Assembly: GCF_003752365.1 (NCBI RefSeq)
Contig: NZ_RJUO01000001.1
Span: forward strand, 310,001-374,000
Reading direction: 5' to 3'
Origin: Frondihabitans sp. PhB188
GTDB taxonomy: Bacteria; Actinomycetota; Actinomycetes; Actinomycetales; Microbacteriaceae
Length of the DNA: 64,000 nt
Of the stretch, positions 25,692 through 36,579 are shown piece after piece. The notes below the pieces were generated by a model. The model searched no databases and had not been told where the DNA came from. It worked only from the letters and a program-made list of their open reading frames with translations. The position numbers and the translations under genes were made by a program. Positions within the stretch are counted from its first letter, which is position 1. Every line of letters begins with the position of its first letter.

Positions 25692-26873
25692 CTACGCGAG
25701 CGAGTTGTAGACCTTCACGGTCTCTTCGGCGATCGACGACCAGCTGAACTCCGACTCGGCCCGCAGGCGGCCCGCGCGGCCCATGAGCCTCGCCATTCCG
25801 GGGTCCGAGAGGGCGTGGGTCAGGGTGGCCGCGAGGTCGCCGACGAACCTGTCGGCGTCGAGCGGCGTGCCGGTGCCGTCGGTGGCCTGGTCGATCGGCA
25901 CGAGCCAGCCGGTCAGCTGGTCGGCGACGACCTCCGGGATGCCGCCGGTCGCCGTGCCCACGACCGGGACGCCGCAGGCCATCGCCTCGAGGTTCACGAT
26001 GCCGAGAGGCTCGTAGATCGACGGGCAGACGAAGACCGTCGCGGCCGAGAGCACGGCGCAGAGCTGGTCGCGAGGCAGGATCTTCTCGATCCAGACCACG
26101 CCCGTGCGAGTCTGCTGGAGCTCTTCGACCAGGCCGGTGACCTCGCGCATGATCTCAGGGGTGTCAGGGGCCCCGGCACACAGGATCAGCTGCACGTCGG
26201 CGGGCAGCGACGCGGCGGCTCGCAGGAGGTACGGGAGGCCCTTCTGGCGGGTGATGCGGCCGACGAACACGACGGCGGGCCGGTCGGGGTCGATGCCGAG
26301 CGAGCGCACGAGCTCGGGCTCGTCGAGGCGGCGCCAGCCCTCGAGGTCGATGCCGTTGTAGACGACGCTGACCTTCGACTCGTCGACCTGCGGGTAGGAG
26401 CGGAGGATGTCGCGGCGCATGCCGTCGCTCACCGCGATGATGTGGTCGGCCGACTCGTAGGCCTGGCGCTCGATCCAGCTCGACACGCGGTAGCCGCCGC
26501 CGAGCTGCTCGGCCTTCCACGGCCGGAGCGGCTCGAGAGAGTGCGCGGTGAGCACGTGAGGCACGTCGTGGAGGAGCTGCGCGAGCTGGCCGGCGGCATT
26601 GGCGTACCAGGTGTGCGAGTGGACGACGTCGGCGCCAGCCACGTCGTCGGCGATCGAGACGTCGACGCCGAGGGTTTTGAGGGCTCCGTTGCGCCCGGCG
26701 AGCTCAGGCAGGTCGGGATAGCCCGTCGTGCCGTCCTCGGCGATCGTCTCCCCGAAGGCACGGACGCGAACGTCGATGGACTCCCGGAGCGCCTTGACGA
26801 GCTCCGTCACGTGGACGCCGGCACCGCCGTAGACGTTCGGAGGGTATTCCTTGGTGATCACATCGACTCGCAC
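25692..26873 (-). CDS. glgA: Glycogen synthase / alpha-maltose-1-phosphate synthase (GT4 type)
   Basis: A 393-residue GT4 glycosyltransferase of the actinobacterial GlgA/GlgM kind: N-terminal ITKEYPPNVYGGAGVHV, then FVGRITRQKGLPYLL and SIYEPLGIVNLEAMACG with the E(x7)E motif. It transfers glucose from ADP-glucose (made by GlgC) to glycogen or to glucose-1-phosphate. The GTG at 26873 starts the conserved VRVDVITKEYPP; an upstream ATG at 26921 would add residues encoded only by the att repeat. Its normal divergent partner glgC now lies 8.4 kb away because of the inserted element. Confidence 0.9.
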   Translation of the reverse strand: MRVDVITKEYPPNVYGGAGVHVTELVKALRESIDVRVRAFGETIAEDGTTGYPDLPELAGRNGALKTLGVDVSIADDVAGADVVHSHTWYANAAGQLAQLLHDVPHVLTAHSLEPLRPWKAEQLGGGYRVSSWIERQAYESADHIIAVSDGMRRDILRSYPQVDESKVSVVYNGIDLEGWRRLDEPELVRSLGIDPDRPAVVFVGRITRQKGLPYLLRAAASLPADVQLILCAGAPDTPEIMREVTGLVEELQQTRTGVVWIEKILPRDQLCAVLSAATVFVCPSIYEPLGIVNLEAMACGVPVVGTATGGIPEVVADQLTGWLVPIDQATDGTGTPLDADRFVGDLAATLTHALSDPGMARLMGRAGRLRAESEFSWSSIAEETVKVYNSLA

Positions 26874-26879
26874 GGGTTC

Positions 26880-26885
26880 ACCGTA
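26880..26885 (-). promoter_or_regulatory. Candidate leaderless -10 box of glgA
   Basis: TACGGT on the minus strand ends six bases before the GTG at 26873. Five of its bases lie in the 40-bp att repeat. Confidence 0.45.
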
Positions 26886-26920
26886 GTCGTCCGGACGCGA
26901 AACGTGCCATTCTGGCCCCA
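26881..26920. repeat. attL, 40-bp core repeat
   Basis: Identical to 35299-35338. It covers 40 of the 47 bp between the glgA start (26873) and the original glgC start, with seven further host bases on the glgA side. Confidence 0.9.
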
Positions 26921-27123
26921 CCGATTCGCCCGCTCACCGGCCACACGCGGAAGCCATCAAAGCGGAGAATCAAGGTTCAGTTCATGAATTGAGTCTGATG
27001 CTGAGGCCAAATTTAGCTGATCAAGGCACGTTCTAGGCACAAACGCACAAGTACACACACAGTCATCTGAGAGACCACGCCTTCTGGCATACCTTCCAGC
27101 ACACCTTCGGGCATGCTTGCCGC
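26921..27123. other. Left end of the element, no gene
   Basis: About 200 bp of AT-richer DNA without a supportable gene. It holds the left copy of the 17-bp candidate integrase arm site (27024-27040). Confidence 0.5.
27024..27040. promoter_or_regulatory. Candidate integrase arm-type site, left
   Basis: 17-bp sequence matching 35194-35210 at 15 positions, in the same orientation, 104 bp inside attL. The shared core is CTAGGCA. Confidence 0.45.
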
Positions 27124-27246
27124 ATGGAAGAGCCGGAAAGCGAACGGTGGGCACGCATTATGCGGGAGCGTGAGGCGAAGACCCGAGACCACAGCCTGAA
27201 GGTTCTAGACGCATTCAAGGCGGCAAGGAAGGCTCGACGTGGTTGA
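27124..27246 (+). CDS. Small element protein, 40 aa
   Basis: A 40-residue highly charged peptide (MEEPESERWARIM..., then several Lys/Arg), probably helical. Not recognised. It overlaps the next gene by 8 bp, a common arrangement for translationally coupled phage genes, which is the main support that it is real. Confidence 0.45.
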   Translation: MEEPESERWARIMREREAKTRDHSLKVLDAFKAARKARRG

Positions 27247-27472
27247 GGACAAGGTGTTGGAGAACCGCCTGCGCCGAGAGGCTGAGCGTCGTGGCTACAT
27301 GTTGGTGAAGTCACGCCGACGCGATCCCAAGGCCCTCGACTACGGCCTCTACGCCTTGGTCGTCGACATGGCCGGGAACCGGGCAGGGCGGTACGGAGGA
27401 CAGGCTGCTATCAGCGCATTCGAGAACGGCTTCGGCATGACGCTCGCTGAGGTCGAGAAGGAACTGAGCTAG
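27239..27472 (+). CDS. Small element protein, 77 aa
   Basis: A 77-residue basic then acidic protein. The central SRRRDPKALDYGLYALV stretch is of a kind I associate with short proteins in actinobacterial mobile elements, but I know no function. The GTG start overlaps the preceding 40-aa gene. Soluble, no cysteines, no membrane segment. Confidence 0.6.
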   Translation: MVEDKVLENRLRREAERRGYMLVKSRRRDPKALDYGLYALVVDMAGNRAGRYGGQAAISAFENGFGMTLAEVEKELS

Positions 27473-27473
27473 T

Positions 27474-27700
27474 TACTTGTCCAGCGGGGTGCCTACCACC
27501 TTGTTGGTGATGGTCCGGACGGCCTGCGACATCGACTGCCCAGAGGTCAGGCCAAAGCTGGCAACCATGTAGCGGACCCCTTCTGCCCAGTCGACGAGGA
27601 GGGCTCCGCTCTGCCGTGTTCTGGCTCTGGTTGAAGAGCGTCTTCATGCGGAGATCGCTGAGGACCGCATCCTTCATCTCGTTGATGACACCGTCAGTGA
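27474..27700 (-). pseudogene. Frameshifted gene remnant
   Basis: On the minus strand, one frame gives LTDGVINEMKDAVLSDLR... up to about 27612, and a different frame continues with GALLVDWAEGVRYMVASFGL through TPLDK and a stop at 27474. Joining the two gives a coherent ~75-residue protein, so a single-base indel near 27600-27612 is likely. Upstream of the first part the frame closes with TAG, so this is a C-terminal relic. No family recognised. Confidence 0.45.
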
Positions 27701-27753
27701 GTGGCTAAGCCGTCCGGGGACAGAGATTTTGAGAAGGACCTTGGCGGCATCGA

Positions 27754-28341
27754 CTACAACGTGAGATGCCCGCCTTCGATGGCCCCCTGGATGTACGTCG
27801 CGACGCTGAGAACGCGATTCGCGCGTTCGGTCAGCGTCATGTGGATGGCCGCGTCACTCCCATCAAACTGGGCGCGCTCGCTGATGAGCCATCTTCCGTA
27901 GTCGCCATGTAGGTAGCGGCCATAGAAGAAGTCGTCCAGCATGTTTTCATCTGTGTAGCCCTCGGGTACACCCGCAACGTGGTGGAGTCCCCAGTCACTC
28001 ATCTTCTCTACGTTCGAGATCGCATTTAGCCAGTCAGAGTCGCGTGCCTCTCCCCCGTCTGCCGCCGTCCTGAGGGCGATGAGAACCGAACTGAGCTTCA
28101 GCTTGTCCCGTGGCGCGAAGTACTTCCGGAGAATTGCCCCATGCAGGACGACTGTCCAGCGGGTCTCATCGTCTTGGCCATACCCAAGCCAGTTGACCGA
28201 TGAGCTGAGGGGGAAGGCTGCCTGAAGCCGTTTGTAGTCCTCGACGGTGGCCAGGAAGTGACGCAACTTGTTCTTGGCCGCCTGTCGCTTGATCGTGTCC
28301 GTCACGGAAGCAGTGTCGCACTTCCGAAAGCATCCAAACAT
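27754..28341 (-). CDS. Uncharacterised element protein, 195 aa
   Basis: A 195-residue soluble protein, not recognised. It has a basic N-terminal part (TIKRQAAKNKLRHFL) and a Trp/Tyr-rich rest (SVNWLGYGQDDETRW; DDFFYGRYLHGDYGRW), suggesting a compact alpha/beta domain. Codon use is less GC-biased than in the host. Divergent from the DUF4145 gene with only 13 bp between the ATG codons, so the two probably share regulation; a GTG at 28305 is an alternative start leaving more room for promoters. Confidence 0.65.
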   Translation of the reverse strand: MFGCFRKCDTASVTDTIKRQAAKNKLRHFLATVEDYKRLQAAFPLSSSVNWLGYGQDDETRWTVVLHGAILRKYFAPRDKLKLSSVLIALRTAADGGEARDSDWLNAISNVEKMSDWGLHHVAGVPEGYTDENMLDDFFYGRYLHGDYGRWLISERAQFDGSDAAIHMTLTERANRVLSVATYIQGAIEGGHLTL

Positions 28342-28354
28342 CTAGAGTTCCAGC

Positions 28355-29227
28355 ATGGCCAACAAGCTCTCCGCCGCCGACCGTGCTCCAGCGCGGAACA
28401 AGCCTCGATTCGATTGCCCGCATTGTGGGGCCTACGCGAGCCAGACCTGGTTCAAGCTCTATCGGGATGTCGGCTCGGAAGACTACGGCCACCCCGAATT
28501 CGAGCTGGTCACTGATGGCAAAGAAATCGGCCTACAACTCGCAGCAGGACCGGGAACACCCATTCCATTTCCCAGCAGCGCAGAGATGGCCTCCGCCGCC
28601 GCAGAGGCCTGGCTGAATAAATCGCGTCATCCTGGCGAATGGATGCAGTCGCTCTGTACGTCTTGCGAGGACTACGCCACGTGGCGAAGTGAAGACTTGA
28701 TTTACCCAGGCACCTCGATCACGCCTCCACCATCCGAAGACATGCCGGAGGACGTAGCAGCTCTGTACGAGGAAGCTCGCGCCGTCGTATCGGTATCTCG
28801 GCGGGCGGGCGCAGCACTCGCACGGGCCACCATGGAAGCCCTTATCAAGCGCATCGACCCGGATGCCCCGAAGCCGATGAACCTTGACAATCGCATCGCA
28901 CGGATTATCCCTACGGTGTCGTCGTCGTTGGGGCAAATGCTTACAGTCATCCGGCACGTCGGGAACAAGACGCTGCACGTCGAGGAAAATCCGGATGCCG
29001 CGACTCGCCTGGTCTTAGACGAAACGCAGACCGAGATTGTTGACCTCATTTTCCAGTCGATCAACGACCTGGTAGACGAGAGAATTACTCGGCCGCTGGC
29101 GGCGGCCTCGGTTCTCAGGCTCGTCCCCGAGTCCGTCAGGTCACGGGTTCCAGGGCTGGCCGACATCATGGAAGGCGCTCCTGGCAATCCACTCGACGGG
29201 CTAGGGACAACCCCGGAGACGATCTAA
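28355..29227 (+). CDS. DUF4145 domain protein with N-terminal zinc-ribbon motif
   Basis: A 290-residue protein. Near the N-terminus CPHCGAY and later CTSCEDY supply two Cys pairs typical of a zinc ribbon. Residues ~130-245 match the helical DUF4145 pattern: ALYEEARAVVSVSRRAGAAL, ALIKRI and IRHVGNKTLHVEE. DUF4145 is HEPN-related and turns up in restriction, defence and mobile loci, but its activity is not established. As element cargo divergent from an unknown gene, a defence or host-takeover role is possible; this is inference. Confidence 0.7.
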   Translation: MANKLSAADRAPARNKPRFDCPHCGAYASQTWFKLYRDVGSEDYGHPEFELVTDGKEIGLQLAAGPGTPIPFPSSAEMASAAAEAWLNKSRHPGEWMQSLCTSCEDYATWRSEDLIYPGTSITPPPSEDMPEDVAALYEEARAVVSVSRRAGAALARATMEALIKRIDPDAPKPMNLDNRIARIIPTVSSSLGQMLTVIRHVGNKTLHVEENPDAATRLVLDETQTEIVDLIFQSINDLVDERITRPLAAASVLRLVPESVRSRVPGLADIMEGAPGNPLDGLGTTPETI

Positions 29228-29261
29228 GGAGAGCGTCGGTAGCTCGGGGCAGTCTCTGCCT

Positions 29262-29573
29262 ATGGGAGTTCGAGGCTCGGGCGAAGCGCTCAACAAGATT
29301 TTAGGGCAATCCCCCGCATCACATCCGTTCGCGTTCGGATCGTTCGGGCACTGGGTTATCCAGCAACGGCCTGCATCTCCGCTGGGGTGGGTGCTCGCGC
29401 GGAACGACTCCGGCGTATGGGTCTTCGATGCTTACGCACGATGCCGCGACAACACGGGCCGACGACCTTGGCTAAAGACCTTCAAGTCTCTTAACTCCGC
29501 AGTCGCTTGGATGCTCCAGCACGAACGAGAGTTACGGGACCTCATGGACAGGAGCGACCCGGAGCCGGAGTAG
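29262..29573 (+). CDS. Uncharacterised element protein, 103 aa
   Basis: A 103-residue soluble protein with several Trp residues (FGHWVIQQRP; LGWVLARND; GRRPWLKTFKSLNSAVAWML) and an acidic tail. Not recognised. It lies 34 bp after the DUF4145 gene on the same strand and may share its transcript. Confidence 0.55.
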   Translation: MGVRGSGEALNKILGQSPASHPFAFGSFGHWVIQQRPASPLGWVLARNDSGVWVFDAYARCRDNTGRRPWLKTFKSLNSAVAWMLQHERELRDLMDRSDPEPE

Positions 29574-29654
29574 GGCTGCGTCTCAGTACCCACGGCAACG
29601 ACACAGAACTGTCAGAATTGTGTGGGGCCACTTCTACTTCCGAGAGGCCTTTAC

Positions 29655-30047
29655 ATGACCGAGTACCCGCACATCGTCCAAGCACGCGACCCTTGGGGCA
29701 ACGTTGCTCAGCTAAGTCCTACCGACGCATACGGCGAACCTAGCGTCATGCCAAACGTCCTTGAAGTGGGCCAGCACGTCCACTTCGTAGTGGAGGCCAG
29801 CGAGCCGGTTACGTGGGTGCCATTTGCACCAGGTGCTCGCATCGACGTGACTCCCGTTGTCGGCCAGGTTGTGGAGTTCGACTGGGTTGTGACGGAATCG
29901 CAGGTTCGACTCCGGTCGGCCTTCTTGTTCCACGCGGTGGGTGAGGGCCGCTTCCACCGCCACGGCGAGCATGACGACACGGTTCAGTTCGTCTACGAGG
30001 TTCAACCCGCCGACGTGGAGTCATGGCAGGCGTACGCCGGGGCCTGA
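29655..30047 (+). CDS. Uncharacterised element protein, 130 aa
   Basis: A 130-residue soluble, probably beta-rich protein with two His clusters (FLFHAVGEGRFHRHGEHDD) that could bind metal. Not recognised. The ATG at 29655 has GAGG nine bases upstream; the frame opens earlier at 29622 without a good ribosome binding site. Last rightward gene of the left half of the element. Confidence 0.55.
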   Translation: MTEYPHIVQARDPWGNVAQLSPTDAYGEPSVMPNVLEVGQHVHFVVEASEPVTWVPFAPGARIDVTPVVGQVVEFDWVVTESQVRLRSAFLFHAVGEGRFHRHGEHDDTVQFVYEVQPADVESWQAYAGA

Positions 30048-30135
30048 AGGGCCAGAGCGGCGCTCCCCGCGCAGCCCGGCCTAGGTTGCTTTTGGGCGCT
30101 CAGAGCTGCCCTGGGCGGCTTCCCGCCATACTCCC

Positions 30136-30747
30136 CTAAGCGTCGTCGGCAACCCTGTAGGCATTGAGGTATCGATAGATGGTCGGCACGCTGGTCCCAA
30201 GCGTTGTCGCTATGTCGGCCACCTTCTCGCCCTCGTCCGAGAGTCGAATGGCTAGGGCGGCCTTCTTGGAGTCGAGTGCTCGGGGGCGGCCTCCGAAGCG
30301 GCCCTGAGCGCGTGCCTCAGCCAGGCCAGATCGAGTGCGACGCAAGATGAAACGGCGCTCCATCTGAGCCATGATCGCCAGGAAGCCCATCATTGCCTCG
30401 CCCATATCGGTTGTGCTGTCTACGCCGTCTGCAATGCTCTTGACGTGAATGCCGCGCTCGCGGAGGTCGGCAATTGTCACGATGACGTGGCCGGAGTTAC
30501 GCCCAAGGCGGTCAAGCTCTGCAACGACGACCAAGTCGCCGGGTGTCACGTTCGCGAGCATTCTGTCGAACTCGGGCCTGGAGGTCTTCGCTCCGCTCTG
30601 ACCGCTGTCTACGTAGAGGGCGTGGTTCGTAATCCCTGCGTCGCGGAGTGCAGAGAGCTGCCGGGCCTCATCTTGCTTGTCAGTGCTGACGCGGGCGTAG
30701 CCGACGACGGTACCGGTCGGGGAGACGTGGGGGGAAGTCATGACCAC
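30136..30747 (-). CDS. Serine recombinase, resolvase/invertase family
   Basis: A 203-residue small serine recombinase. The catalytic Ser sits in GYARVSTDKQ near residue 20; the conserved resolvase segments LDRLGRNSGHVI, GIHVKSI and GFLAIMAQMERRFILRRT follow, and residues ~155-200 form the DNA-binding helix-turn-helix (GEKVADIATTLGTSVPTIYRYL). It would resolve or invert DNA at paired sites; the inverted repeats just upstream are candidates. The ATG at 30741 or GTG at 30747 may start it. Full length, all key residues present. Confidence 0.88.
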   Translation of the reverse strand: MVMTSPHVSPTGTVVGYARVSTDKQDEARQLSALRDAGITNHALYVDSGQSGAKTSRPEFDRMLANVTPGDLVVVAELDRLGRNSGHVIVTIADLRERGIHVKSIADGVDSTTDMGEAMMGFLAIMAQMERRFILRRTRSGLAEARAQGRFGGRPRALDSKKAALAIRLSDEGEKVADIATTLGTSVPTIYRYLNAYRVADDA

Positions 30748-31095
30748 AGATTATCAATAGTCGTCTATCCAAAACAAGAATGTGGGGCAGGTTCCGTAGT
30801 CGAGTTTTGAGAACTGGATCGAGGTCCGAGAGCGGTTGTCCGGGGCGGTTCAGAAGTTCTCGCTAACCGATCGTTTTTGAGAAGACCGTCTCCACGTTCT
30901 GCCGAAGACGCAGACCGGCCCACTCGCTGACAAACTTCCCGGATTGTGGAATGCGAGTGGGCCGGGGCATTGGGGTGCGGGCCGGATCAGCTCGCCGAAA
31001 CCTCCGGCCCGCACTGGTCGCAGTTTCCAGGCCAACAAACCTAACTGCGACCTCTTCGGCGACCCAAGGAGTAAGCGCCGAAGCTGTGTTCGGAA
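30748..31095. other. 348-bp gene-free stretch with serial hairpins
   Basis: No supportable gene. The left part (30748-30914) contains the recombinase promoter region and a weak 7-bp inverted repeat (30809-30815, 30855-30861); the right part is almost wholly occupied by perfect inverted repeats listed separately. Confidence 0.6.
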
Positions 31096-31110
31096 CTACT
31101 TTGTTCCGAA
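30915..31110. repeat. Five consecutive perfect inverted repeats
   Basis: Stem 1: 30915-30927 with 30953-30965 (13 bp). Stem 2: 30975-30986 with 31003-31014 (12 bp). Stem 3: 31016-31025 with 31043-31052 (10 bp). Stem 4: 31054-31061 with 31076-31083 (8 bp). Stem 5: 31089-31096 with 31103-31110 (8 bp), which overlaps the 3' end of the next gene. All arms are perfect, loops are 6-25 nt, and neighbouring stems are 1-9 nt apart. Candidate replication or transfer origin, packaging site, recombinase site or structured RNA. Confidence 0.75.
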
Positions 31111-31326
31111 AATCTTGTTTTTCACGAGTTGCTGGAGCGGGGTGGGTACCTCTACCTCGCCGCCCTCAGTGAAGGCCCGGACGACTCCGGCGAGGTCCAG
31201 CACCCACGCGAGCGCACCGTCTTGGACTCGGACGACCTTGCAGCCGCTAGGGAGGCCGTAGGAGGCTGATCCAACCTGTAGGCGGGCACGACCTCCGATT
31301 GAGGGACGGAAGAGCTTTAGCGCCAT
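31096..31326 (-). CDS. Small element protein, 76 aa
   Basis: A 76-residue protein starting MALKLFRPSIGGRARL, with a predicted beta-rich middle (CKVVRVQDGALAWVLDLAGVVRAF). Not recognised. The ATG at 31326 has GAGGAGG about nine bases upstream and overlaps the end of the preceding gene by 10 bp, so the set is translationally coupled. Its stop codon lies inside the fifth hairpin. Confidence 0.6.
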   Translation of the reverse strand: MALKLFRPSIGGRARLQVGSASYGLPSGCKVVRVQDGALAWVLDLAGVVRAFTEGGEVEVPTPLQQLVKNKIFGTK

Positions 31327-31718
31327 GCTGAGGCCTCCTCGGCCCACTCGGTAGTACGTCGCACGAGAGTGGCGAAGGTTCGGAGATCAATCACGACGTA
31401 GCCAGCGCTCGGCTCGTGGCCCGGGCGACTCCAAACGCCCGCGTAAAACGGGTTTCCGGCCTGCTCAGCGGCCTCGCGGGCTTCATCGATACCGCTGGAG
31501 AAGTAGGGGCGACGCTCTGCCCTGGTGATGACCGACCACCCGTCAAGACCAAGAATGTCGCCGTGGCCGTCTACCCCGTCTACGGGGTCGATCCGGGTGC
31601 GGTTCTCTCGGCGCTGGAGCGCGGGGAGTCCATGTGCTTGCAGGAACATCACGACCTCGCGTCGCCAGCGGACTCCGGCGCGCTTGGGGTGAAAATCTTG
31701 TTTGGACGCGTCAGGCAT
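31317..31718 (-). CDS. Phage-type PD-(D/E)XK nuclease-like protein, probably inactive
   Basis: A 133-residue protein resembling short actinophage nuclease or Holliday-junction-resolvase-like proteins: a basic N-terminal half, then VDGHGDILGLDGWSV, EAREAAEQAGN and a late AGYVVIDLRTFATLVR strand-helix. In such proteins the segment after GLDGW normally reads ExK; here it is ITRAERR, so the catalytic pair seems lost. The start MPDASK at 31718 is favoured because it overlaps the upstream gene by 8 bp. Confidence 0.5.
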   Translation of the reverse strand: MPDASKQDFHPKRAGVRWRREVVMFLQAHGLPALQRRENRTRIDPVDGVDGHGDILGLDGWSVITRAERRPYFSSGIDEAREAAEQAGNPFYAGVWSRPGHEPSAGYVVIDLRTFATLVRRTTEWAEEASAWR

Positions 31719-32208
31719 AGAGACCGCCTCGACGTGGGGCAGGCGACGGCGACACTGCGCCATCCGTGGGGCGGTCAGCCGAGAAGCGGGCTGTCTCAGT
31801 CGAAGTCGGCTGGCCCGCACCGTAACGGCTCAGGACTGCTCGGAGGGCCTTCGCCCTGTCCCCCTCGTCTGCGACCGCCCATGCGGCGCTTTGTGCCTTC
31901 GCTCGGTTAAGTTCCCAGACCGGATCGCCTTGGACCCAGGTCTCTGTGTCGTCTGGCCACGGGCCTGGCGCGAAGCGAACCTCGCCCCACTTCTCGATTT
32001 GGCCCTCCGCGTCATTCACGAGGTCAAGCCAGCTAACGCCGTGCTTATTTTTCGTTGCCTCGATCAGATCAGCGGTGATCGTCACGGTTCGACCTCGCTC
32101 GACTACCTCGCCGCCGCTAAACAATCCACCGCCGACCGGGAGCGTGGCAGCCGTCAGGGCGTGGAAGCGCTCGCCGGGGCTTGCGTGGAAAGTCTTGTTC
32201 GTTGTCAT
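31711..32208 (-). CDS. Uncharacterised phage-type protein, 165 aa
   Basis: A 165-residue soluble protein with a beta-rich first half (GRTVTITADLIEATKNKHG; VSWLDLVNDAEGQIEKWGEV) and a Pro/Ser/Ala-rich tail. Not recognised; the gene order and overlaps (4 bp with the preceding gene, 8 bp with the next) are those of a phage early operon. Confidence 0.6.
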   Translation of the reverse strand: MTTNKTFHASPGERFHALTAATLPVGGGLFSGGEVVERGRTVTITADLIEATKNKHGVSWLDLVNDAEGQIEKWGEVRFAPGPWPDDTETWVQGDPVWELNRAKAQSAAWAVADEGDRAKALRAVLSRYGAGQPTSTETARFSADRPTDGAVSPSPAPRRGGLYA

Positions 32209-32774
32209 GCGTGAACCGCCTTACTGAGTTGAGTTTCTGAACTGAGCGCGTGGCCCTCTAGGGCTGTGGCCATCTCGTCGGCACCAAGTGCACGGAGTCG
32301 GGAGGCGATGGCACGACCGAGTGCCGGGTCTACGCGTGTGGCGATCCCGACCGCCGTGGCCAGGCGCTCGCCGTCGCGCAACTGGTCGAGCACTTCCAAG
32401 TCATCTACGCCTAGGCGGTCGAAGAGGGCTTCCAGGGCGCGAACCTCGGCGGTACCGGCTCGGAGTGCTACCGAACGTTCTCCATCGTCTAGGGCGCTCA
32501 AGCGAGCGTCACGAGCGGAGTCGGCCACGTCAGCGACGCGAGAGATCAGGTCGGACGTGGACAGGCTCTCAGCGCCTCGTAGGGCTTGGCGAGCTTCGGG
32601 CGCAAGATGACTCCGAATGTGACGGCGGACCGAATCAGCAGAAACGCCGTGGTCTCGCGAAAGGCGCGCAATCGGAGTGCCCGCGATAATTCCAGCGTCG
32701 ATCTCGGAAAGGTCAGCGTGGGCGCAGATCGTGCAAGGGCGACCGATTTTGCCAGGAACCTTGGTTTGATCCAT
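32205..32774 (-). CDS. HTH protein with Cys pair, phage/mobile-element type
   Basis: A 189-residue protein. Its N-terminus has RPCTICAHADLSEIDAGI followed by a helix-turn-helix (ARLSRDHGVSADSVRRHIRSH), an arrangement seen in mobile-element DNA-binding proteins and small-terminase-like proteins. The remaining ~130 residues are helical and acidic. It could regulate the operon or mark DNA for packaging; no large terminase is present. First gene of the four-gene overlapping set. GAGGAG lies about 11 bases upstream. Confidence 0.6.
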   Translation of the reverse strand: MDQTKVPGKIGRPCTICAHADLSEIDAGIIAGTPIARLSRDHGVSADSVRRHIRSHLAPEARQALRGAESLSTSDLISRVADVADSARDARLSALDDGERSVALRAGTAEVRALEALFDRLGVDDLEVLDQLRDGERLATAVGIATRVDPALGRAIASRLRALGADEMATALEGHALSSETQLSKAVHA

Positions 32775-32865
32775 CGTGGCGGCGCTCCTCTCGAAATCCT
32801 CTTCATAGGACTATCGGCGCGGCGTGAGCAAACTTGCACCGTTCAGACGTTTTTCTTTGCAGTCG

Positions 32866-33879
32866 TCACAGAGTCAGTTCATCCGCCCAGGCCGTTAGAT
32901 CGTCGTCGGGGACGCAGCGGGCGTTATCCACAGGTGTTGTGGAGTCTCCATTCATGATCTGGTCCCAGTCGTCGCGTTCGTAGTGACGCGTCTTTGGGAA
33001 GGCGACGCTGTAGGACCGGCGACGTGGCTTCGGTGGTACAGGCTCAGCGGTTGCCCCTGGCAGATATACCTCCGGCTTAGTCGATACAGGCTCTGATTCT
33101 TGTTCTGCTCGCTCCTGAGGCTTATCTGTCAGTGCCTGCTTCCGGTATCGCGAGATCGTCCGCTCCGTCACTCCCAAGGCCTTGGCCTGCTCCGTGATCG
33201 ACAGGTGCTCCAGCCCCTCCAAGGAGTGCTTCGGCTTCCGCTTGGAGGTCTTGCCACCTTTCCGACCGGCGACGCTGAGCTTGGTCTTGAAGTCCGCGTC
33301 CCACACGTCCAAGGCGAACACGGCAGCACTCTGCGTCATCCGCTCCACGGCGGCGAGACTGAAGCCCTTGCTCTGCCCTACGTCGTCGTAGTCGGACAGG
33401 AAGCCATACGGCTTGTTGTCCATCACGTACTCCCAGAGGTAGTCCTCCAAGTGCTTCTGCTTCAGGGAGGCCACTGTCAGGCCGTTGTCGTCGCCGTGCA
33501 TGAGTTCCCGGAGTTCCTGGTGACTCTCGGCCTCCATGACGGCAGAGAGCCACTGGCGGCTGATCTGCTTCCCGATCCGGTCATCACCCACGAGAGCATG
33601 AAGCTCGAAGATCGTGAGCTTCTGCCGTCTCTCGTTCAGGTGCCGGAGTGCAATGGAAACCAAGTGACGGCCTACCTGCCTGTAGTAGGAGTCCTCAGGG
33701 TCGATGGTCCACGTATGCAGAGGGAAGGCAAGAGCCAGCTTCTCCGGGAATTCCTTCTTCCGTCTTCCTTCAGCTCTCGCTTTCCAGAGCTTTCGCTGAG
33801 CCTCAGTAGGAGCACTAGGAGCTGTAGTGCTCTCTGGCTCTCCGTGGAGATGCACGTTATCTGTCAGTGGGAAAGTCAT
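32866..33879 (-). CDS. Element HTH protein, possible replication initiator or regulator, 337 aa
   Basis: A 337-residue protein. Residues ~30-200 are a helical alpha/beta region with no motif I can name; around 215-255 lies a basic stretch (GRKGGKTSKRKPK) and a helix-turn-helix (LSITEQAKALGVTERTISRYRK); the C-terminal 80 residues are Pro/Glu-rich and disordered. The size and layout suit a replication or control protein of a plasmid-like element, but this is inference. ATG at 33879 has AGGAG eight bases upstream; the longer frame from 33918 lacks a ribosome binding site. Confidence 0.6.
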   Translation of the reverse strand: MTFPLTDNVHLHGEPESTTAPSAPTEAQRKLWKARAEGRRKKEFPEKLALAFPLHTWTIDPEDSYYRQVGRHLVSIALRHLNERRQKLTIFELHALVGDDRIGKQISRQWLSAVMEAESHQELRELMHGDDNGLTVASLKQKHLEDYLWEYVMDNKPYGFLSDYDDVGQSKGFSLAAVERMTQSAAVFALDVWDADFKTKLSVAGRKGGKTSKRKPKHSLEGLEHLSITEQAKALGVTERTISRYRKQALTDKPQERAEQESEPVSTKPEVYLPGATAEPVPPKPRRRSYSVAFPKTRHYERDDWDQIMNGDSTTPVDNARCVPDDDLTAWADELTL

Positions 33880-33975
33880 CTTGGACTCCTTGCTTGGCGG
33901 GTTGAACTGCTCCTCCATCTACGATCGGCGCGGAGTCGACGCAGTTCACCTGTAGTACGCCGCAGAACGCGAGAA

Positions 33976-34011
33976 CCCCCACGTTGAAGAGATGACGCTT
34001 CAACGTGGGGG
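33976..34011 (-). terminator. Hairpin after the integrase gene
   Basis: 14-bp perfect arms (33976-33989, 33998-34011, CCCCCACGTTGAAG and its complement) with an 8-base loop, 50 bp beyond the integrase stop. GC-strong stem, no T-tract. Confidence 0.6.
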
Positions 34012-34032
34012 AGCAAATTCCCGCCAAGGAAT

Positions 34033-34048
34033 CGGTATAACTATACCG
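34033..34048. promoter_or_regulatory. Palindrome CGGTATA-N2-TATACCG
   Basis: Perfect 7-bp arms with a 2-bp spacer, AT-rich centre, 12 bp beyond the integrase stop codon. It looks like a small repressor operator and lies upstream of the leftward HTH gene. Confidence 0.35.
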
Positions 34049-34060
34049 CTAGCGAGCGAG

Positions 34061-35161
34061 TCACTGGCTGCTCTCCGCTCGTGAGGCTTTCTTGCCGGTT
34101 GCAAGTTGCTCCACGAGGACCGCGGATACTTTCAGGGCTGCCTCCCTTCGACGCTGGTCGTCGGAGTGCATGTAGTGCAAGGCGCTCCGGATGTCGGCAT
34201 GTCCGCCGCGTTGCATGACCTCTTCAATCGAGAGTCCCGACTGCGCGGCGACAGACAACCCCATGTGCCGTAGATCGTGCGGGCGGATGTTTGGGAGGCC
34301 GGAGTCCTCACGGAGTTTGGCCCACGTCCGTCTGAACCACGAGTCATTGATCGGCTTGCCTCGGGACGTGGTGAAGAGCGGAGTCATCGGGAGGCGGGGA
34401 TTCTTGGCGAGGTAGTCGCGGAGTGCATTCAGGCCAGGTGCGAGCAGGACGACGGTCCTGGTGGTTCCCGTCTTGGTCGGGCTGACGACTTGGGCGCGAA
34501 GCTGTTTCGAAATCGTCACCGTTCCTGTCTCCAGGTCCACGTCACTACGGAGTAAAGCTCGTAATTCGCCGATCCTGACGTGGGAGGCGAGCATGGTCCA
34601 CAACACCGGCAGGAAGCCCTCTGGGGCCGCGTCTAAGAGCTTCTGGAAGTCTCGAAGCGTATACGTCTTCGGAGCCTCTGCCGTGGCCCGCATAGCGCCT
34701 CGGACGGTCGGCTTGACCGCTAGCTCCTCCCACTCGACAGCAAGGCTCAGATAGGCGCTGAGAGCCGTGTAGGCGTTCCTGCGGACGTTGACAGACGCGT
34801 CCATGGTGTCGAGCCAAATCGTGATCCGGCGCTTGGTGATGTCCTTCAGCGCGACGTGGCCGAACGTCGGCAAGATGCGGAGCCTGAGGTGTCCTCGGTC
34901 GTTGGTGATCGTTCCCGCCCTCAGGGTCTGCTCACGGTGTCGGAGAGCCAGTGGCGCGAACTCTCCGAAGGTCATGGCTCCCTTGGTTTCGTCCACCCAC
35001 GCGTCCCGACTGAGGTCGGCTTGGACTCGTGCCAGAGCGTCTTTTGCCGCCTTCAGAGTGTCGAAGCTCCCCACGGTCCTCTGACGCTTGTCTGGACCCC
35101 AATAGCGGGCCTGGACCTTGCCAGAAGGAAGCGTGCGGGTGGTACCGAAGGAGCGAGTCAT
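34061..35161 (-). CDS. int: Tyrosine site-specific integrase
   Basis: A 366-residue phage-type integrase. Residues ~1-60 form an arm-binding-like AP2/SAM-like start (GKVQARYWGPDKRQRTVGSF), ~65-150 the core-binding SAM-like domain, and ~165-350 the catalytic domain with Arg196 (HVRIGELR), Lys230, His295 and Arg298 (HDLRH), His321 (GGHADI) and nucleophile Tyr330. All catalytic residues are present, so the element may still move. It lies beside attR, as usual, and is transcribed away from it. GC content is lower than in host genes. Confidence 0.95.
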   Translation of the reverse strand: MTRSFGTTRTLPSGKVQARYWGPDKRQRTVGSFDTLKAAKDALARVQADLSRDAWVDETKGAMTFGEFAPLALRHREQTLRAGTITNDRGHLRLRILPTFGHVALKDITKRRITIWLDTMDASVNVRRNAYTALSAYLSLAVEWEELAVKPTVRGAMRATAEAPKTYTLRDFQKLLDAAPEGFLPVLWTMLASHVRIGELRALLRSDVDLETGTVTISKQLRAQVVSPTKTGTTRTVVLLAPGLNALRDYLAKNPRLPMTPLFTTSRGKPINDSWFRRTWAKLREDSGLPNIRPHDLRHMGLSVAAQSGLSIEEVMQRGGHADIRSALHYMHSDDQRRREAALKVSAVLVEQLATGKKASRAESSQ

Positions 35162-35193
35162 GTTCGTGCCGATCTCGTGACGACCGACCTTCT

Positions 35194-35210
35194 AGGCACG
35201 CTCTAGGCAT
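35194..35210. promoter_or_regulatory. Candidate integrase arm-type site, right
   Basis: Matches the left site (27024-27040) at 15 of 17 positions, same orientation, 88 bp inside attR. A further TCTAGGCAC starts three bases upstream (35191), giving two CTAGGCA units 11 bp apart. Confidence 0.45.
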
Positions 35211-35298
35211 GAGCGCGACAGGTGCCGATCTGCACCAGACCGAAAACAAGAATTTCCGGCGTGATTCTCCCGGTAATTCCATGTTGCGCGACCGGGTG

Positions 35299-35338
35299 CC
35301 GTAGTCGTCCGGACGCGAAACGTGCCATTCTGGCCCCA
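35299..35338. repeat. attR, 40-bp core repeat
   Basis: Identical to 26881-26920; its last base is the A of the glgC ATG, so integration keeps the glgC start codon and its -10 box intact. Confidence 0.9.
35326..35331 (+). promoter_or_regulatory. Candidate leaderless -10 box of glgC
   Basis: CATTCT ends six bases before the glgC ATG, inside attR; no Shine-Dalgarno sequence is present. Confidence 0.35.
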
Positions 35339-36579
35339 TGGCATCAAAGAAGATCTTCGGCATCGTCCTCGCCGGCGGAGAGGGCAAGCGACTCATGCCC
35401 CTCACGGCCGACCGTGCGAAGCCCGCAGTCCCCTTCGGCGGCAACTACCGCCTCGTCGACTTCGCGCTCTCCAATCTCATCAACTCGGGGCTGCGGCAGA
35501 TCGTGGTCCTGACGCAGTACAAGTCGCACAGCCTCGACCGGCACGTGTCGCAGACCTGGAGCATCGAGGGCCTCCTCGGCGCCTACGTCGCCTCGGTGCC
35601 CGCGCAGCAGCGCCTCGGCAAGCGCTGGTTCGCCGGCAGCGCCGACGCGATCCTGCAGAGCCTCAACCTGCTCCGCGACGAGAAGCCCGACATCGTCGTC
35701 GTGGTCGGCGCCGACCACGTGTACCGCATGGACTTCGAGCAGATGGTCGAGGCGCACATCGCCTCCGGCAAGAGCGCCACCGTCGCGGCCATCCGCCAGC
35801 CGATCTCGCTCGCAGACCAGTTCGGCGTCATTCAGACGAACGCCGACGACGCGACGCTGATCGACGCGTTCCTGGAGAAGCCCAAGAACCCCGTCGGGCT
35901 CGCCGACTCGCCCGACGAGGTCCTCGCCTCGATGGGCAACTACGTCTTCAACGCCGACGCGCTCATCGACGCCGTCCTCCGCGACGGCGAGAACGCTGAG
36001 TCCGACCACGACATGGGCGGCGACATCATCCCCGACTTCGTGTCGCGCGGAGACGCCGCCGTGTACGACCTCAACCGCAACGAGGTCCCGGGCTCGACCG
36101 AGCGCGACCGCTACTACTGGCGCGACGTCGGGACCATCGACTCGTTCTACGACGCACACCGCGACCTCATCGCAGCGCTGCCGGTGTTCAACCTGTACAA
36201 CACCGACTGGCCGATCTTCAGCCAGCAGCTCAACTCGCCGCCGGCCAAGTTCGGGCGCGACGAGCACGGCAACCCGGGCTCGGTCATCGAGTCGATCGTC
36301 TCGCTCGGCACGCTGGCCGTCGGCTCGCACATCGAGCGCAGCGTCGTCGGCCCCTGGAACACCCTCGACTCCGGCTCCCGTGTCGTCGACTCGGTGCTGT
36401 TCGACCGGATCTACGTCGGCAAGAACTCCATCGTGAACCGCGCCATCCTCGACAAGGACGTCGTGATCGTCGATGGAGCGCACGTGGGTCTCGACGCCGA
36501 GGCCGACCGGGCTCGCGGCTTCACCGTGACACCGTCGGGCATCACCGTCGTCGGCAAGGGCGTCCGAGTAGAGCAGTAG
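35338..36579 (+). CDS. glgC: Glucose-1-phosphate adenylyltransferase
   Basis: A 413-residue ADP-glucose pyrophosphorylase making ADP-glucose from ATP and glucose-1-phosphate, the donor for GlgA. N-terminal nucleotidyltransferase domain with [13 protein letters not shown] and the [16 protein letters not shown] substrate segment; C-terminal left-handed beta-helix from about residue 300 ([21 protein letters not shown]). Complete. Normally divergent from glgA; the mobile element now separates them, but its promoter region is reconstituted in attR. Confidence 0.96.

Follow-up and report, generated by a model that had tools for sequence, protein, structure and literature searches.

Several mobile elements that integrate at the 5' ends of genes or beside promoters have been described. 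Streptococcus pyogenes chromosomal islands (SpyCI) are small integrase-borne islands located at the 5' end of a housekeeping gene, with a bearing on the expression of the flanking gene (PMC3430984, PMC4689407). Streptococcal integrative and conjugative elements (ICEs) at ftsK, rbgA, and ebfC are likewise described as site-specific 5'-end insertions, which leave 15 to 64 bp upstream of the ftsK start unchanged, and the TnGBS ICEs make promoter-linked intergenic insertions (PMC4701971). In the TIGER/Islander resource, 22.8% of 1,757,053 island assignments are given as intergenic (PMC12424338). The locus presented here lies in Frondihabitans sp. PhB188, family Microbacteriaceae, in a stretch of 64,000 nucleotides (assembly GCF_003752365.1, contig NZ_RJUO01000001.1, positions 310,001 to 374,000), referred to below as the window, whose coordinates are used throughout. 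An element of 8.4 kb separates the divergent glycogen genes glgA and glgC, and it was very probably integrated by its own tyrosine integrase at a core formed by the glgA-glgC promoters, leaving each gene with a separate promoter copy. Flanking repeats, an empty site in relatives, an integrase gene at the right end, and a different base composition of the insert were found in the sequence and by comparison with related genomes.

The element is bounded by two 40-bp direct repeats at positions 26881 to 26920 (attL core) and 35299 to 35338 (attR core), which are identical letter for letter. The identity breaks on both sides, at 26880 (a) versus 35298 (g) and at 26921 (c) versus 35339 (t). A 160-bp probe around the left copy gave only two matches in the 3,793,925-base assembly at E ≤ 0.001, both of them the repeats, and no third copy of the core was found in the assembly with this probe. 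The 8,378 bases between the repeats have a G+C content of 61%, compared to 71% in the left flank (about 10 kb) and 69% in the right flank (10 kb). The glycogen synthase gene glgA (25692 to 26873, minus strand; NCBIfam TIGR02149, residues 1 to 391) starts with GTG at 26873, and glgA of relatives align from residue 1. The glucose-1-phosphate adenylyltransferase gene glgC (35338 to 36579, plus strand; NF002023) starts with ATG at 35338, and the A of this codon is the final base of the attR core. Without the insert, 46 bp separate the two start codons, or 47 bp if the A of the ATG is counted.

The empty site was found in all the relatives compared. Seven Frondihabitans genomes, including this one, were searched with the right core and the start of glgC as the query. 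In all six congeners, a single diverged copy of the core, matching 32 to 37 of the 40 bases, lies between adjacent and divergent glgA and glgC, and the joined flanks (left flank, one core, and right flank) align in one piece with 84 to 89% identity, in two genomes from base 10 on. None of the congeners carries the element: four gave no DNA match to it, and G005 and G006 gave short matches only (the longest one reported covers 227 bases at 67%, and the one with the top score 173 bases at 72%). A pattern scan for the conserved right part of the core in named genomes, the records of which may omit genomes very near that of the window, returned eight loci, two from Frondihabitans and six from Frigoribacterium, with glgA and glgC adjacent in all eight and a relative of the integrase seen in none. 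Of 396 genomes of the family Microbacteriaceae, 321 gave a match to glgC and 319 a match to glgA. In the 85 genomes with both genes placed among the matches listed, glgA and glgC are always divergent and on one contig; the gap between them is 36 to 162 bp in 84 genomes (51 bp or less in 61 of these 84 uninterrupted genomes, and 45 to 51 bp in 60) and 8,464 bp only in Frondihabitans sp. PhB188. The preliminary description of this DNA, made from its letters, had proposed identical repeats, a glgA-glgC spacing of 47 bp with the core ending on the A of glgC, and an intergenic site rather than a tRNA gene. These points hold, and relatives with glgA and glgC far apart, which it had named as contrary to an insertion, occurred neither among the six congeners nor among the 84 uninterrupted family genomes. 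No tRNA gene was found within the 64-kb window, yet the TIGER/Islander share (22.8%, PMC12424338) indicates that intergenic attachment sites are not rare.

The core forms nearly the whole region from which both genes are probably transcribed. The candidate -10 box of glgA, TACGGT (26880 to 26885, minus strand), lies 6 nt before the GTG in leaderless geometry, with five bases in the core and the sixth being the chromosomal base 26880. That of glgC, CATTCT (35326 to 35331, plus strand), lies entirely within the core, 6 nt before the ATG, and aligns with the TAnnnT of other genera. Leaderless transcription from actinobacterial promoters predicts a spacing of 5 to 8 nt between the -10 box and the start codon, and positions 2 (A) and 6 (T) of the box matter most. 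TAnnnT was present 5 to 8 nt ahead of the start codon of glgA in 16 of 16 genera and of glgC in 13 of 16, this genus included; mononucleotide shuffles gave means of 0.5 and 0.6, respectively, and none of 5,000 reached either observed value. Loci for the 15 other genera came from the top section of the glgC match list, which biases the sample to nearer relatives; each genus is represented by one locus, and L054 was therefore omitted as the second one from genus g31. At L058, the glgC start was placed 3 bases late; inspection by eye puts the box 7 nt from the ATG, and the count would then be 14 of 16, but the computed 13 is reported. The glgC box is CATTCT, at the same distance and with positions 2 and 6 kept, both in Frondihabitans and in the Frigoribacterium locus of this set. 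The comparison supports glgA and glgC being read from divergent, putatively leaderless promoters.

With spacers of 17 to 18 nt, the -35 region of each gene meets the -10 box of the other with an overlap of 1 to 2 bases, and the two longest invariant core stretches among the seven Frondihabitans sites, GTAGTCG and AACGTGCCATTCTG, fall at these two meeting places. Because both promoters lie within the same 46 bp, the size of the RNA polymerase footprint suggests that they cannot both be occupied at once, and in the empty site they would exclude each other.

The 8.4-kb integrative element would have entered the chromosome by site-specific recombination, presumably catalyzed by its own tyrosine integrase, which would have joined a 40-bp attP core with an identical 40-bp attB core made of nearly the whole glgA-glgC intergenic region. 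At attL, glgA retains its native start, its -10 box including base 26880, and the whole core upstream, and at attR, glgC retains its ATG and the whole core upstream; beyond each core, the upstream DNA of both genes is now that of the element. Since the -10 boxes lie at or near the core edges and the -35 regions inside, each gene keeps the stretch from the -35 region to the start codon after integration, and both genes should, judging from the sequence, still work. This agrees with the preliminary description, in which the -10 boxes had been placed in or at the edge of the core and each gene had been expected to keep its own promoter copy: the glgC box is inside the core, the glgA box has all but one base in it, and core plus start are retained on both sides. 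With a separate copy per gene, the insertion may end the direct coupling of the promoters and uncouple the regulation of glgA and glgC, which the promoter geometry makes plausible.

In addition to the promoter presumably in use (glgA at attL and glgC at attR), each core carries an orphan copy of the other promoter that is aimed into the element. The orphan glgC-type box at attL is intact and points towards two small open reading frames (ORFs) of 40 aa (27124 to 27246) and 77 aa (27239 to 27472) that overlap on the plus strand and may be transcribed from this promoter. At attR, the g at base 35298 turns the orphan glgA-type box from TACGGT into TACGGC; the -7 T is thus missing, and the box is probably weak.

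The integrase gene (34061 to 35161, minus strand) encodes 366 aa and lies at the right end of the element, 137 bp from attR. Its product matches PF00589 (3.8e-22), PF14659 (6.1e-07), and phrog_1 (1.2e-60), and the R, HxxR, GH, and Y motifs of a tyrosine integrase are readable in its sequence. Two copies of a 13-mer containing TCTAGGCA, candidate arm-type sites of the integrase, lie beside the gene (35187 to 35210, plus strand), with a third copy of this arm-like repeat near the left end (27028 to 27040, plus strand). Exact TCTAGGCA occurs three times in the window (27032, 35191, and 35202), always near the element ends, a placement such as arm-type sites would show. A perfect 14-bp inverted repeat with 8 nt between its arms (33976 to 34011), perhaps a terminator, is located about 50 bp downstream of int.

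Thirteen ORFs were picked in the element, 12 of which were scanned with Pfam, 10 with PHROGs, and 8 with NCBIfam; several match no family. The intact catalytic domain of the integrase together with the repeats and the single-copy empty site is what characterizes a tyrosine-integrase integrative element, and the sequence would be classified as such. No conjugation, translocase, or replication genes were recognized among the scanned ORFs, nor was there a PHROGs match to virion structural genes in the 10 ORFs scanned with it, so by its apparent gene content the element would be neither an ICE, including the actinomycete type, nor a prophage. A phage satellite, packaged by a helper phage, would fit its size and gene content.

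Several observations weigh against an integrase-driven insertion into a promoter core. The element was seen in one genome only, so the target specificity is read from a single insertion. The attL and attR cores agree at all 40 bases, including those varying between congeners, which means that attP already matched the promoter of this species; either the donor belonged to this species or a very close one, or the two copies were later made identical. Allowing one mismatch, the arm-like 10-mer occurs four times in the window versus 1.1 expected, a count reached in 4 of 100 shuffles, and two of the four lie outside the element; this over-representation is modest, and so is the weight of the motif by itself. 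A search of the core for inverted core-type integrase sites found none at 70% or more, and no excisionase was recognized. On the promoter side, the glgC box in Frondihabitans is CATTCT and not TAnnnT, and a good -35 consensus at a spacing of 16 to 19 nt is absent for both genes.

The alternative that survives best grants the integration and concerns the regulatory step only: the integrase would recognize the 40-mer, its promoter content would be accidental, and the insertion would be tolerated without regulatory meaning, with glgA and glgC expression unchanged or damaged. Intergenic sites are common targets, and 5'-end elements are reported either to leave or to replace the upstream region (PMC4701971). 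Set against this are the core boundaries, which stop exactly at the A of the glgC start and cover both promoters almost to the base, a fit that at least suits tolerance. We give this alternative an even chance. The fullest regulatory scenario, in which the element targets an overlapping bidirectional promoter, converts a mutually exclusive pair into two independent promoters, rewires glgA and glgC, and expresses its left-end genes from the host promoter captured at attL, appears unlikely as a whole.

An origin of the repeats by transposase-type target duplication or by homologous recombination, in place of integrase-mediated att recombination, is very improbable. The lack of core-type inverted repeats at 70% or more would agree with it, as would the serine resolvase encoded in the element, with its sub-threshold match to IS607 transposases (32 bits versus a cut-off of 110). 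Conversely, 40 bp far exceeds the 2 to 13 bp given for DDE transposases (PMC4701971), no DDE transposase was recognized among the scanned ORFs, the integrase gene lies 137 bp from a repeat, and arm-like repeats are present near both ends. Finally, a reading in which the repeats would be ancient and selection for a divergent promoter module would have preserved their likeness on both sides of genes native to the lineage is hardly credible despite the conserved promoter blocks within the core, as it is refuted by the empty sites, with none of the six congeners carrying a second copy or the intervening genes, and opposed by the G+C difference between insert and flanks and by the identity of both copies at the species-variable bases.

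The other genes of the element are mostly on the minus strand to the left of int. They encode proteins of 350 aa (32866 to 33918; a weak helix-turn-helix match below the Pfam cut-off, and weak relatives at two of the five related-integrase loci compared), 189 aa (32205 to 32774; relatives at three of these five loci), and 165 aa (31711 to 32208; relatives in 12 others of the 396 family genomes searched), followed by ORFs of 167 aa (31317 to 31820) and 83 aa (31096 to 31347) with no family match and by the serine resolvase/invertase gene (30136 to 30747). A DUF4145 protein gene on the plus strand (28355 to 29227) is a PD-T7-4-like candidate anti-phage gene and would be cargo of the element. Its product matches PADLOC profile PDLC04109 (2e-34; residues 89 to 264 on profile positions 37 to 202 of 211, with no curated cut-off in the PADLOC table), PF13643 (1.6e-05), and PDB chain 9y9c (3.7e-20), a solved DUF4145 protein structure; PD-T7-4 is described as originating from a selection for phage defense. 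By eye, the N-terminal part outside the PD-T7-4 match shows CxxC pairs like those of a zinc ribbon. A minus-strand ORF without a family match (27754 to 28341) looks by eye like part of a broken gene, as it seems to resume in a different frame in the direction of 27474.

In 398 family genomes searched, 13 related integrases with 29 to 36% identity were found besides this one. Six of them lie within 1.5 kb of a tRNA gene (four Gly and two Ser), and seven have no tRNA gene in the stretch examined, one of these being cut by a contig end. No closer relative was confirmed by pattern scan in genome contigs or viral contigs, and the phage matches to the integrase are all below 60% identity, those listed being near 28%. 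For the 350-aa and 165-aa proteins, no relative was confirmed in viral contigs, nor was one of the 350-aa protein found in plasmids; the 165-aa protein has one weak phage match. The locus of G146 encodes a resolvase and counterparts of the 350-, 189-, and 165-aa proteins, arranged as they are here; that of G227 carries relatives of the 350- and 189-aa proteins and a resolvase that shares 82% identity with the one here over 187 aa, and that of G073 has a 189-aa relative and a resolvase. By the coordinates listed, the relative of the 165-aa protein lies within about 6 kb of the related integrase in 4 of the 12 genomes (G134, G146, G168, and G314). An integrase related to this one in G036 (L045, 13079 to 14125), about 6 kb beyond glgC, was considered as a second element at the glgA-glgC site and ruled out because the gap in G036 is 47 bp.

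Near the related integrase of G146 (L049, 13349 to 15468), an AriA-like ATPase gene (2.5e-35) overlaps a gene for 307 aa without a family match, reminiscent of a two-gene defense system. The stretch near the related integrase of G227 (L046, 16137 to 19484) encodes an AAA_13 ATPase and part of a Type ISP restriction enzyme. In the stretches examined in G227 and G073, no repeat of the tRNA end exceeding 13 bases was found, so the cargo there is described only as neighboring. These loci would fit a family of small islands with exchangeable defense cargo, in which several integrases use tRNA genes and this one may have come to use the glgA-glgC promoter.

As its att core is nearly the whole promoter, the element occupies a gap of just 46 bp between two genes with no evident loss of sequence from either. 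The strain also offers a natural experiment: with the promoter overlap broken, it allows a test of what overlapping promoters contribute to the coordination of glycogen synthesis. The integrase, which uses a 40-bp site outside tRNA genes, may serve as a tool in Frondihabitans.

Compared with the described systems, SpyCI are reported to split mutL from its promoter and to keep it silent until excision (PMC3430984), whereas here each gene keeps a promoter copy. The streptococcal ICEs affect the 5' end of one gene, with the promoter replaced in rbgA and ebfC (PMC4701971), in contrast to one core serving two divergent genes here, and they differ further in that conjugation genes were not recognized in the scanned ORFs of this element. 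The TnGBS ICEs use a DDE transposase and, as described, insert 15 to 16 bp upstream of -35 boxes at many sites with a short target duplication (PMC4701971). The loci of related integrases in Microbacteriaceae (L024 to L036) resemble this one in their integrases and, in some, in relatives of the backbone proteins and the resolvase, and differ in their sites, 6 of 13 being near a tRNA gene and none known at glgA-glgC. No paper on a glgA-glgC integration site was found in the limited literature searched. Elements that use intergenic attachment sites, or 5'-end targets whose upstream DNA is preserved, are already known, so this one is of a known kind; what stands out is its target, with a core made of almost an entire overlapping divergent promoter.

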